A DNA stretch of 60,958 nt from Terriglobia bacterium. Lineage in GTDB: Bacteria; Acidobacteriota; Terriglobia; UBA7540. A program made the translations under genes and the position numbers. Shown here piece after piece: positions 7,276-48,150 of the stretch; the stretch's first letter is position 1, and each line of letters starts with the position of its first letter. The notes beneath the pieces are model-generated. The model was not told the origin of the DNA and made no database searches. It worked only from the letters and a program-made list of their open reading frames with translations. The stretch is taken from NCBI GenBank assembly GCA_030041095.1, contig JASHON010000134.1, forward strand, positions 1-60,958, in the 5' to 3' direction.

Positions 7276-7407
7276 TCGAGTTGCACCTCCACGCTGAATT
7301 CACGGAGCTTGATTCCCATGGCAAAAATCGTCAGAGACTAACTTCCACGCGCCGATCGGAGACCAGCCATCGGTTCTGCGCAGGACGTGGAAAGCGAACC
7401 ATCCTAA

Positions 7408-7536
7408 CAGGCTGCGGAAAAAGCCTGTCTGCCTTGCTGAGTGAGGCGAGAGATATCTGCATCTCTTCGAAAATAAATGCCGGGATTCTTCGCTGCGCTC
7501 AGAAGGACATTTGTTGAAAACGTTTTTCAGCATCCT
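7408..7536 (+). repeat. Intergenic 'SERSEES' repeat with CAGGCTGCGG left end
   Basis: The left end CAGGCTGCGGAAAAA is shared with the repeats at 1649 and 46815. The body (ATGCCGGGATTCTTC, CTCAGAAGGACATT, CAGCATCCT) matches 30150-30216. The minus strand would read 'CPSERSEESRH', a well-known spurious translation of such repeats. It fills most of the 278-bp gap between the asparaginase and permease genes. Confidence 0.8.
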
Positions 7537-7553
7537 GACTAAACCGCCAACGA

Positions 7554-30069: not shown

Positions 30070-30216
30070 AAATTTGTTCTGCCAGGGGGCTGAAAAAACA
30101 CTTTGGGTCATGTCATGCTGAGCGAAGCGAAGCATCTCTGCATTTCTTTGGAAACCAATGCCGGGATTCTTCACCGCTCTCAGAAGGACATTCGTTGAAA
30201 GCGTCTTCAGCATCCT
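30070..30216 (+). repeat. 'SERSEES' repeat copy 1
   Basis: It begins AAATTTGTTCTGCCAGGGGG, contains TGTCATGCTGAGCGAAGCGA, and ends CATTCGTTGAAAGCGTCTTC then AGCATCCT. The latter half matches 7470-7536, and the first 75 bp match 30521-30595. Confidence 0.8.
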
Positions 30217-30405: not shown

Positions 30406-30520
30406 TATGAAAAGCGAGGAGTTATGAAAATCCGTCACATCATATCCCAGCAACTTGTTGAATAAACATGCGATAGCTAAATCTGAACTTCGACGTGGCG
30501 CTGCTTTCCGAGCCACGATA

Positions 30521-30751
30521 GATTTGTTCTGACAGAGGGCTGAGAGAACACTTCAGGCGATGTCATGCTGAGCATAGCGAAGCATCTCGGCATTTGAGAA
30601 ATCAAGCAAATGCAGTGATCCTTCGTCGCCCCGGCTCCTCTGCATGATACACGGCGCTAAGCCTTTTGTATTCACCGAGCCGGAATCGCGCCCTGGCGCC
30701 GCGTGTCATGCCCCAGATTGGCAGCCCAAGCTGTGGGCGCTCAGGATGACA
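30521..30751 (+). repeat. 'SERSEES' repeat copy 2 with inverted ends
   Basis: It starts like copy 1. The motif TGTCATGCTGAGC (30561-30573) is inverted at 30739-30751 (GCTCAGGATGACA, 12 of 13 pairs), so a 191-bp segment is bounded by inverted repeats. Confidence 0.75.
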
Positions 30752-44961: not shown

Positions 44962-45016
44962 CGCTGTTGACTCCGTGATCTGTTCTTCGATCGACGATCG
45001 TCAAGCGCCAATTGGA
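44950..45016 (+). repeat. GATTG-type inverted repeat at the araD stop codon
   Basis: TGACGATTG near the araD stop is inverted as CGATCGTCA (8 of 9 pairs) before the symporter gene. The right half, CGTCAAGCGCCAATTGG on this strand, is the complement of the repeat at the stop of the permease at 7554. Confidence 0.5.
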
Positions 45017-45029
45017 ATGTGAGCTCTTT

Positions 45030-46751
45030 ATGACGCATCTTCCCTGGACTGTTCCCGCTCTGTTGCTACTGGCGGCATCGCACGTTCTCTCACCCAAGGC
45101 CGTAGACTTCGTGGTGATCGTTGTTTACTTCGTGATGGTGCTGGGAATCGGTTTCTATCTGAAGAAATACACGAAGAGTGGCGAGGACTTTTTCCTGGCC
45201 GGACGGGAAATGACGGCCTGGGTGGCCGGCCTGGCTTTTCTTTCAGCCAATCTTGGCTCGCTCGAATTGATGGGCTGGGCCGGAGCGTCTGCCGAATACG
45301 GTATTCTGGCCGCGCATTGGTACTGGATCGGAGCCATCCCGGCCATGGTGTTTCTTGGCGTAGTGATGATTCCGTTCTACTACATTTGCAAAACACACTC
45401 TGTTCCCGGCTACCTGAACCTGCGCTACGATCGCGCGACGAGCGGTCTGGGCGCCATCTGCCTGGCCGTCATTACGATTCTGACTTCGGGCGTTAATATG
45501 TTTGCCATGGCGCTGGTGCTCAATGTCCTGCTTGGATGGAACATCAACGTCAGCATTTGGGTTTCGTCCCTCGTGGTGGGCGTTTACGTGGCGGCAGGCG
45601 GCCTGTTTTCCGCCATCTTCAACGAAGTGGTGCAATTCTTTCTGATCTGGTTCGGATCGCTGCTGATTCCGATTCTGGGAATGATTGAAACGGGGGGTTG
45701 GAACGGCCTCGTGGCGCGCATCCGTGCTCGCTTCCCTTACCAGGACTTCACGCATTTGTGGCGGGGGCTCGGCCACTTCAGCAGCAACCCCATGGGCATC
45801 CATTGGACGGGAATCGTCTTCGGCCTGGGCATGGTACTTTCGTTCGGTTATTGGACCACGGACTTTCTGGTGGTGCAGCGCGTGCTGAGCGCCAGAGACG
45901 TGCGCGCAGCAAAGATGGCGCCGATCATTGCCTCCTTTTTTAAAATGGCAATTCCGCTGATCGTCATTTTACCGGGATTGCTGGCGCTCGGAGTCCTTCC
46001 GTTTCACCTGGTGCCGCAAAGCACTGCGCATGCGGGACAATACACCTACAATGACGTTCTCCCGCTCATGCTGGGGCGATATTGCGGTCCCGGACTTTTA
46101 GGCTTGGGCATCACAGCGCTCATCGCCGGCTTCATGTCCGGCATGGCCGGGAACACCAGCGCATTCTCCACGGTGTGGACCTACGACATTTACCGCGCCT
46201 TTATCCGCAAGGACGAGTCAGATGAGCACTACGTCAGCATGGGCCGGTGGTCCACACTCGTTGGCGTCGTCGTTTCAATCGGCGCCGCGTACTTGGTGAT
46301 GCAATTTGCCAGCATCATGGACTACGTTCAGGCGCTCTTCAGCTTTTTCGATTCTCCGCTCTTTGGCACCATCATCCTGGGGATGATGTGGAAGCGGACC
46401 ACGCCGAAGGGGGCTTTTTGGGGCCTGGCGGCCGGGGTGGGCTCGTCAGTGGCGATGTTCGTGGCGGTCAAGGTGAATCCTCACCTGCTCGCTGTCTTCG
46501 CTCTCTCGTCGCACGCCCAGGTTATGGCCGATAATATGTATCGGGCCTTGTGGTCATGGCTCATCTGCGTAGGTGTGACGGTGGGCGTTACGCTCTTCAC
46601 TTCACCGCGCAAAGAAGGGGAATTGACCAGCTTGGTTTACGGCCTTACCGAACTGCCTTCCGAAGGGCACCTGCCGCTTGTGAAGCGGCCGATCTTCTGG
46701 GGCGCAGTTGCGATGGCCGCTCTGGTGGCGCTGCAGATCATTTTCTGGTAG
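45030..46751 (+). CDS. Sodium/solute symporter (SSS family), probable sugar importer
   Basis: A 573-residue inner-membrane protein with about 13-14 helices, typical of SGLT-like SSS transporters: SGEDFFLAGREMTAWVAGLAFLSANLGSLELMGWAGASAEYG (first helices with the sodium site), FLGVVMIPFYY, GYLNLRYD, and the mid-region GYWTTDFLVVQRVLSARD. SANLGSLELMGWAG is characteristic of the sugar subgroup. Position at the end of the ara operon suggests L-arabinose uptake. The ATG at 45030 is used; an earlier start at 45012 adds six residues. Confidence 0.92.
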   Translation: MTHLPWTVPALLLLAASHVLSPKAVDFVVIVVYFVMVLGIGFYLKKYTKSGEDFFLAGREMTAWVAGLAFLSANLGSLELMGWAGASAEYGILAAHWYWIGAIPAMVFLGVVMIPFYYICKTHSVPGYLNLRYDRATSGLGAICLAVITILTSGVNMFAMALVLNVLLGWNINVSIWVSSLVVGVYVAAGGLFSAIFNEVVQFFLIWFGSLLIPILGMIETGGWNGLVARIRARFPYQDFTHLWRGLGHFSSNPMGIHWTGIVFGLGMVLSFGYWTTDFLVVQRVLSARDVRAAKMAPIIASFFKMAIPLIVILPGLLALGVLPFHLVPQSTAHAGQYTYNDVLPLMLGRYCGPGLLGLGITALIAGFMSGMAGNTSAFSTVWTYDIYRAFIRKDESDEHYVSMGRWSTLVGVVVSIGAAYLVMQFASIMDYVQALFSFFDSPLFGTIILGMMWKRTTPKGAFWGLAAGVGSSVAMFVAVKVNPHLLAVFALSSHAQVMADNMYRALWSWLICVGVTVGVTLFTSPRKEGELTSLVYGLTELPSEGHLPLVKRPIFWGAVAMAALVALQIIFW

Positions 46752-46807: not shown

Positions 46808-46941
46808 GGCTGCACAGGCTGCGGAAAAACTCGACGCCGCTGCGAACGTAGTGCCGGCCTCTGTTGAATTGAAGGGAGTTGCCGGCTGGAAGCCGGTGCT
46901 ACGTCAACTCCCGAAAGAGTTTCTCCGCAGCCTGTACAGCC
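46808..46941. mobile_element. MITE-like palindromic repeat element with 25-bp inverted ends
   Basis: GGCTGCACAGGCTGCGGAAA (46808 onward) is inverted at the right end (46917-46941, 23 of 25 pairs). The interior holds TTGAATTGAAGGGAGTTGCC and GGCTGGAAGCCGG, itself a short hairpin. It has no reading frame. It sits between the convergent symporter and aldose epimerase genes and may act as a bidirectional terminator. A truncated copy is at 1649-1752. Confidence 0.8.
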
Positions 46942-47004: not shown

Positions 47005-48150
47005 CTACCGCGAGGTCAGGAATTTGAAAACCGTGGTTTGATGGAATGTTTGGCCGGGTTTCAGCTCCGTTGTGGGGAAATGAGGTTGGTTGGGCGAATC
47101 GGGGAAATGCTGCGTCTCAAACGTGAACGCTGAACGGTGACCGTAAACTCCCCCTATTCCATGGATCGTGCCGTCCAGGAAGTTGCCCGTATAGAGCTGC
47201 ACGCCAGGCTCTGTGGTAAACACTTCCAACTCGCGCCCTGATTTTGGACTAACTGCGCGTGCGGCGAACTCCAGGCCGGGACCTTTGCGGTTCAGGATCC
47301 AATTGTCATCGTAACCCCTCGCGAATTTAAGCTGCTGATTGCCCTCGTTGATTCGCTCGCCGATCCGCGTGAGTTTACGGAAGTCAAATGGAGTGCCGTC
47401 CACGCTCTCGATCTTCCCCGTTGGAATCATCACGTCGTTGATCGGCGTAAAGGAGTCGGCGTTGATCAGGACCGCTTCGTCCAGTATGCTGCCGCTTCCC
47501 GCTCCGTCGAGATTGAAATATGAGTGATTGGTCAGGTTGATGACCGTGTCTCTGTCGGTTGTGGCAGTATAGTCGATTGTTAATGCATTGTCATTTTTAA
47601 GCGTGTAGACCACTTTCACGTGCAAGTCGCCCGGGAAGCCTTCTTCGCCGTTTTTGCTGAAGTAAGTAAGCTCGACGGCCGGGAGCGGTCCAGCGAGCTC
47701 GTGCGCTTTCCACACCTTCTTGTCGAAACCTTCGGGACCACCGTGCAGGCAATTCGGGCCGTCGTTGATGGGGAGATGGTATTCCACGCCGTCCAGATGG
47801 AATCTGCCGTTGGCGATTCGATTGGCATAACGGCCGACGGTGGCGCCGAAGAACGGATCGTTGCCGAGATAGCCGGTCATGCTGTCAAAGCCCAGGACCA
47901 CGTCGGCCATTTTGCCGTGGCGGTCGGGCACGTCAATCGATTGAATTCTTGCCCCATACGTGATGATGCCCACTTTCATCCCATGCGAGTTCGTTAGCGT
48001 GTACAGATCGACCGGCGTTCCATCCGGCATTTTCCCGAATTGACTCATAGTGATTCCTTGTCTCGAAATTGACTTGGCTGCGGCCATCACTCCCCAAAAG
48101 ACGAATGCGACGACCGGCAAAATCACCCAAGGGTTTTTGATGCGCGACAC
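47005..48150 (-). CDS. Aldose 1-epimerase (galactose mutarotase), exported or membrane-anchored
   Basis: A 381-residue mutarotase. Residues about 7-27 (WVILPVVAFVFWGVMAAAKS) are a signal peptide or anchor. The GalM fold follows: NSHGMKVGIITYGARIQSIDVPDRHG, DPFFGATVGRYANRI, NGPNCLHGG-like INDGPNCLHGGPEGFDKKVW, INLTNHSYFNLDG (catalytic His), and TEPGVQLYTGNFLDG (Glu). It probably equilibrates anomers of sugars freed in the periplasm, such as arabinose from GH127. It converges on the symporter gene with the MITE-like element between them. Confidence 0.93.
   Translation of the reverse strand: MSRIKNPWVILPVVAFVFWGVMAAAKSISRQGITMSQFGKMPDGTPVDLYTLTNSHGMKVGIITYGARIQSIDVPDRHGKMADVVLGFDSMTGYLGNDPFFGATVGRYANRIANGRFHLDGVEYHLPINDGPNCLHGGPEGFDKKVWKAHELAGPLPAVELTYFSKNGEEGFPGDLHVKVVYTLKNDNALTIDYTATTDRDTVINLTNHSYFNLDGAGSGSILDEAVLINADSFTPINDVMIPTGKIESVDGTPFDFRKLTRIGERINEGNQQLKFARGYDDNWILNRKGPGLEFAARAVSPKSGRELEVFTTEPGVQLYTGNFLDGTIHGIGGVYGHRSAFTFETQHFPDSPNQPHFPTTELKPGQTFHQTTVFKFLTSR

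Follow-up and report, generated by a model that had tools for sequence, protein, structure and literature searches.

The Element and Its Surroundings

The DNA analyzed here, referred to as the window, is a stretch of 60,958 nucleotides from a Terriglobia bacterium. A sodium:solute symporter gene (45012–46748, plus strand) and an aldose epimerase gene (47005–48150, minus strand) converge in it, and a short palindromic element sits between their ends at 46808–46941. The 25-bp inverted ends (23 of 25 positions matching) and the internal hairpin that had been reported there in a preliminary description, made from the letters alone, are indeed present. When split base by base, each of these 25-bp ends turns out to combine 18 bp of the element's own end with 7 bp of its palindromic target. 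The element proper therefore covers 120 bp (46815–46934), its usual form being 131 bp, and is probably a non-autonomous element of IS5 type with an interior that we call body A. Its left inverted repeat, CAGGCTGCGGAAAAACTC, lies at 46815–46832 (plus strand), and the right one (46917–46934, minus strand), with a terminus that reads GAGTTTCTCCGCAGCCTG, matches it at 17 of 18 positions. Comparison of the flanks assigns TGCA (46811–46814), a TNNA motif, and TACA (46935–46938), with one mismatch, to the left and right copies of a target duplication, and GGC (46808–46810) and GCC (46939–46941) to the arms of the palindromic target.

One intact REP was found in the interior, a GTAG-tagged sequence at 46881–46902 that reads GTAGCACCGGCTTCCAGCCGGC on the minus strand and was recognized by its match to a family counted genome-wide. 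The alignment of copies places the remnant of a second, inverted REP at 46848–46858 (plus strand), this left REP being 11 bp shorter than in the 131-bp form; the window copy thus appears to be a deletion derivative.

Folded as RNA, the window element reached −59.6 kcal/mol (z −5.33, 0 of 200 shuffles equally low); its other strand gave a z score of −7.92, and full-length body A reached −81.3 kcal/mol (z −9.16). The z scores for the two other bodies described below were −2.96 (body B) and −5.60 (body C). A predicted hairpin of this strength could possibly affect the neighboring transcripts. No Rfam family was matched in the window at the gathering score. In a genome of the same genus (G001), the gene beside the insertion has an ortholog that aligns at 74% identity over 45099–46435. 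No end with two or fewer mismatches was present in the fetched ortholog, and the alignment stops about 380 bp before the insertion point, too early to cover a possible empty site.

Related copies lie elsewhere in the window. The copy at 1649–1752 was confirmed to be a body-A copy that keeps its left end and has lost the right one; its REPs are at 1682–1703 and 1726–1747, and its RNA fold is unremarkable (z −1.15, 27 of 200 shuffles as low). The left-end motif had also been noticed at 7408, next to a different, 'SERSEES' hairpin body. This proved to be a complete body-B element of 130 bp (7408–7537) with the exact left end, a right end, TTTTTCAGCATCCTG, that differs at 2 of 15 positions, and flanks of CTAA at 7404–7407 and CTAA at 7539–7542, one base off the right end. 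A decayed element with a related hairpin body occupies 30083–30216, with 3 mismatches in the 15 positions of the left end and a degenerate right end. Degenerate hairpin-body repeats were seen both there and at about 30500–30660, with a near-repeat of accaacaaacccagtaagtt between them.

Copies, Ends and Bodies in the Genome

The 15-bp core of the end, CAGGCTGCGGAAAAA, was searched in the whole source genome (G000; 4,880,965 bases or 4.88 Mb, 207 contigs, 95.5% complete) allowing one mismatch. It was found 244 times (130 forward and 114 reverse), against 1 + 0 matches of the reversed-pattern control, which excludes chance as the origin of the repeat. When the A and B elements were used as DNA queries, a first look listed 192 and 266 candidates, and 40 of each were scored. 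Within the retrieved stretches, 91 two-ended copies were examined, leaving out two pairs that reuse the right end of another copy; these comprise 68 with body A, 18 with body B and 5 with body C, and the figures are not genome totals per body. A length of 130 or 131 bp was observed in 74 of the 91, though the bodies are unrelated, and body-A copies have an identity of 0.946 to their consensus (67 copies). At 120–131 bp and in many copies the element is too short to encode a transposase, as is characteristic of a MITE.

The highest numbers of ends were counted in the source genome, G001 and G027. The same-genus genome G001 has 15 distinct two-ended copies, nearly all with body C and 13 of them 131 bp long. 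The eight two-ended copies of G027 span 120 to 470 bp, and a constant length is therefore not general. The 122 distinct elements that were compared across nine genomes fell into 16 body clusters, four of which occur in the source genome. No match to the 131-bp body-A element was found in phage and plasmid collections, and among viral contigs the 18-bp end occurred in 14 stretches, with a second inverted end within 500 bp only in L261.

Target Duplications and Landing Sites

Identical 4-bp duplications flank 29 of the 68 body-A copies (shuffled mean 3.79, maximum 11 in 1000 shuffles), and 5-bp duplications flank 4 more; the remaining 35 have neither. Duplications were also observed in G001 (13 of 15 copies; shuffled mean 4.83, maximum 10) and in G027 (4 of 8; shuffled mean 0.76, maximum 4). 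Body B shows 4-bp duplications in 3 of 18 copies (shuffled mean 0.77, maximum 4), and body C in 5 of 5, but with repeated flanks that the copies share (shuffled mean 3.44, maximum 5). The flank consensus of body A is GGC-TNNA-GCC, written out as GGCTTTAGCC, with two exact arms in 25 of the 68 copies, and GGC/GCC arms are present in 14 of the 15 copies of G001. The mean outer stem of body A measures 2.13, compared with 1.52 after shuffling (maximum 2.1, 1000 shuffles), while the flanks of body B are not significantly palindromic (0.89 vs. 0.59 shuffled, maximum 1.28).

The whole-genome search that the preliminary description had proposed thus yielded bodies A, B and C between consistent ends, with 4-bp duplications, far beyond the places first listed. 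The idea of a non-autonomous family whose members differ in body but have their ends in common, presumably mobilized by one enzyme, agrees with the high copy number and the target duplications.

Many body-A copies have unmatched flanks, such as TTTA/TAAA, which recombination between copies or assembly errors at the repeat would produce. The copies at L017, L034, L171 and L184 pair a TTTA flank with a TAAA flank and look as though two insertions had swapped flanks by recombination or misassembly. Several contigs terminate a few hundred bases from an element.

Additionally, the flanks of 37 copies with a duplication were joined and searched for empty sites in the retrieved sequence. An uninterrupted paralogous target was detected for 13 of the 37, after one self-match had been dropped from 14; one of these is weak (72%), and several cannot be counted as independent, having a single repeated target in common.

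Some landing sites lie beside RAYT genes. Four places in the source genome (L096–L099) carry RAYT genes that are 89–94% identical and bracketed by GGGCTTTAGCCC palindromes; L096 scored 110.9 bits against the NCBIfam RAYT model (cut-off 80). In L096 and L099, a C element interrupts one palindrome of the pair at the central TTTA/TAAA, so the family uses RAYT-flanking palindromes as targets, among others. Both palindromes are intact in L097 and L098. Hairpins of GGCATGACTTCAGTCATGCC were also seen near this multi-copy RAYT (L096–L099).

REP Sequences as Passengers

Body A consists of two inverted copies of a GTAG-tagged REP, GTAGCGCCGGC-NNNNN-GCCGGC. This pattern has 234 matches in the source genome (control 0) and 23 in G001, and is present in 38 of the 61 genomes, with controls never above one. 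Among the first 100 places listed, 48 have an exact end within 120 bp, 8 belong to other scored elements, and the remaining 44 fall outside both classes. Twenty loci were fetched from this last group, and because 12 of them lack an end even at 3 mismatches, the solo REPs are probably older or independent. One of these 12, L203, contains the middle of body A with its REP pair, and would be either a precursor or a decayed copy. In G046, of the same class, 63 REP matches were observed, several as inverted pairs 48 bp apart, together with only 3 end matches; these pairs seem to have spread without IS5 ends.

Other GTAG pairs occur between the same ends in G027, for instance GTAGCGGCGACTTTACGTCGCC with GGCGGGGTAAACCCGCCGCTAC. 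Under a strict hairpin definition, a GTAG hairpin was found in 5 of the 16 body clusters, from 4 genomes, and in none of 17 body-B and 14 body-C members, nor in the B-like body. As the B, B-like and C bodies lack it, REP cargo is frequent among the bodies and is not a rule.

These counts bear on the strongest alternative, to which we give slightly less than an even chance: that the IS5-type ends and the REPs are independent repeats brought together by a single chance encounter, body A being spread by its ends alone with the inner REPs as inert filler. Bodies B and C did spread without REPs, and the background rate of the GTAG hairpin is not zero, with 14 of 2139 windows of 130 bp, a lenient control as these windows include coding DNA. 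However, against this background and the 4 of 3200 block-shuffled bodies that form the hairpin, the share of the clusters that carry it indicates that REPs are over-represented among the passengers, which argues against a single encounter.

Transposons With the Same Ends

The route from the ends to an IS5-family transposase led through the genome G040, in which no complete IS5 element was found, only collapsed ends at contig edges. IS5 elements from Thiolapillus and Acidithiobacillus plasmids carry related ends, namely CAGGGTGTTGAAAAA, flanked by TTAG left and right, and CAGGATGCTGAAAAA. A scan of genome contigs with the transposase of G019 returned 10 loci, of which L228, a short match, was left out of the end comparison. 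Both 15-bp ends are exact in L220 (Acidobacteriaceae MAG palsa_296) and in L221 (bog_373). L221 is flanked by a TAAA/TAAA duplication in GGGCACGGC-TAAA-GCCGTGCCC; the flanks of L220, TGAA/TAAA, are not an exact duplication, and its right end has 20 bp in common with body A. In L219 (the G019 contig) and L222 the right end is exact and the contigs begin inside the element, the left end lying beyond the edge. The five loci from other bacteria have ends with 2 to 4 positions different. Past the first 15–20 bp, the elements are unlike the IS5 elements examined.

Against the NCBIfam model NF033581 ('IS5_4', cut-off 140 bits), L220 scored 238, L221 150 and L137 218. Among the 61 genomes, 11 exceeded the cut-off; none of G000, G001 and G027, the genomes richest in ends, had a protein above it. 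At the 11 best-scoring loci that relatives have above the cut-off, both ends were found within 3 mismatches in 6 (two of these being the same contig in two genomes), one exact end in 1 and none in 4. L132 and L133 are the same contig (7835 bases, reversed) in G006 and G030, which points to shared or misbinned IS contigs; the IS contig of G019 also has 7835 bases and gave no megablast match to it.

The recurrence of the exact ends on full-length NF033581 transposons of other Acidobacteriota, one of them with the same duplication and target, makes an IS5-type DDE transposase the most likely enzyme, rather than a RAYT. Against an IS5_4 enzyme stand the lack of a transposase above the cut-off in G000 and G001, the body-A copies with neither a 4-bp nor a 5-bp duplication, and the few duplications around body B. 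From its absence in the genomes richest in ends, we infer that the IS5 transposase that moved these copies, acting in trans, either disappeared from this genome once the bursts were over or is not represented in the assembly; repeated IS may have collapsed in an assembly of this fragmentation and completeness.

It is improbable that another DDE family of the same genome, with ends resembling those of IS5_4, supplies the enzyme. The own-genome search covered only PF13751, PF01797 and NF033581, which leaves room for such a family, and an IS1182-type gene is indeed present, being the single NF033581 match of the source genome (67.5 bits). Nevertheless, this transposase was rejected as the owner of the ends, since its own perfect 23-bp inverted repeats have a different sequence, and every transposase-bearing element seen with exact ends belongs to IS5_4. 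The IS1182-type element at L091 (1309–2865) has a 451-aa open frame and perfect 23-bp inverted repeats, and is unrelated to the MITE.

The preliminary description had suggested a RAYT as the mobilizing enzyme. RAYTs are tyrosine transposases of the IS200/IS605 type, which are not known to leave a target duplication. The sequence fetched around each of the eight Y1_Tnp loci of the source genome, up to about 3.4 kb, includes an element end at four of them. A solo REP lies to one side of the domain match in L097, at a distance of about 200 bp, and another is more than 600 bp away in L098. Even with this proximity and the inverted GTAG-tagged REP pair of body A in its favor, a family moved by a RAYT, in essence a REPIN with long outer arms, is highly improbable, and the RAYT was discarded as the enzyme, given the 4-bp duplications, the fixed palindromic target, bodies B and C with the same ends and no GTAG hairpin, the exact ends on IS5-family elements, and the RAYT genes L096–L099, where GGGCTTTAGCCC palindromes, and neither the end nor the body-A REP, form the brackets. 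The involvement of REPs and RAYTs is a different one, with REPs as cargo of body A and RAYT-flanking palindromes among the landing sites; the transposase whose own flanks carry the end, which the preliminary description had advised looking for, was met in the IS5-family elements of other Acidobacteriota and not in these RAYTs.

Discussion

Taken together, the family is very probably a non-autonomous MITE of IS5 type, moved in trans by an NF033581 transposase, duplicating TNNA in GGC-TNNA-GCC palindromes and carrying the REP pair as the passenger of body A. The sequence evidence covers the ends, copy number, bodies, duplications, palindromic target, paralogous empty targets, the IS5 elements elsewhere and the solo REPs. 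In the mechanism proposed, an IS5-family DDE transposase supplied in trans would recognize the 15–20 bp ends, CAGGCTGCGGAAAAAC(TC), whatever the interior, and would excise or copy the element, so that anything between two inverted ends could travel along. Insertion would take place with a 4-bp stagger at the center of a GGC-TNNA-GCC palindrome, duplicating TNNA, and the landing site would be a small GC-rich palindrome, usually intergenic. With an inverted GTAG-REP pair as the passenger in body A, the pair would gain a second way to multiply. Presumably the ends captured the REP pair, and solo REPs did not arise by losing them.

MITEs derived from IS5, MITEs that bear REPs and insertion sequences that target REPs have all been described, and it is their combination that appears to be new. 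A MITE that has IS5 ends and interchangeable bodies, carries GTAG-REP pairs and inserts in palindromes flanking RAYT genes was not found in the searched open-licence literature. The IS5-family MITEs of Porphyromonas gingivalis (BrickBuilt, MITEPgRS, MITE239/700; PMC4596501) have ends common to IS5 elements and differing interiors, as here; in the portion of that article available, no transposase remnant is described inside them and one interior is itself a repeat, also as here. That repeat is a 23-bp minisatellite, whereas the Terriglobia passengers are REP-type hairpins, and the Terriglobia element differs further from the MITEs of that portion in its much higher copy number and palindromic target. 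QMITE2 of Coxiella burnetii (PMC5896051, PMC10969869) is a MITE with a GTAG REP, like body A, and another insertion sequence, IS1111, lands in that REP. Its duplications are variable (7–11 nt) and an IS5 link is not given in the extracts of these articles, whereas the Terriglobia element itself lands in palindromes.

In Anabaena variabilis, GTAG REP dimers form inverted pairs regularly found inside a longer palindrome, as in body A (PMC3733652). The outer palindrome is read as the target in that article, with no IS link in the part available, while the Terriglobia ends are linked to IS5 and flanked by duplications. The REP-targeting insertion sequences of PMC1525189 hit the axis of the REP palindrome and include the IS5 family (ISNm1106), which resembles the present element; ISRm22 is likewise inserted at a palindrome axis. 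In the sections of that article considered here they are full-length elements, whereas the Terriglobia element is non-autonomous with REP cargo. REPINs (PMC3116915) share with body A the inverted REP pair, and RAYT genes are present in the source genome; unlike REPINs, as far as the excerpted text describes them, the Terriglobia element has ends, duplication and target of the DDE transposon type.

More tentatively, IS5-type ends might repeatedly pick up RAYT-made GTAG-REP pairs and the elements land in RAYT-flanking palindromes, so that two unrelated transposition systems feed each other throughout this bacterial family; we regard this as less likely than not. If it were true, each round of one system would provide cargo or landing sites for the other, and mutual feeding would have raised the REP count of the source genome about tenfold over that of G001 (234 vs. 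23).

For the non-autonomous IS5-type MITE itself, the family offers a concrete case of REP pairs apparently spread by a DDE transposase instead of a RAYT, which bears on how REPs multiply where no REP-flanked RAYT is found. The targeting rule (palindrome center, TNNA) would direct a mini-transposon into intergenic hairpins, and the end-matched bodies may be useful for probing the length and interior that the enzyme tolerates.
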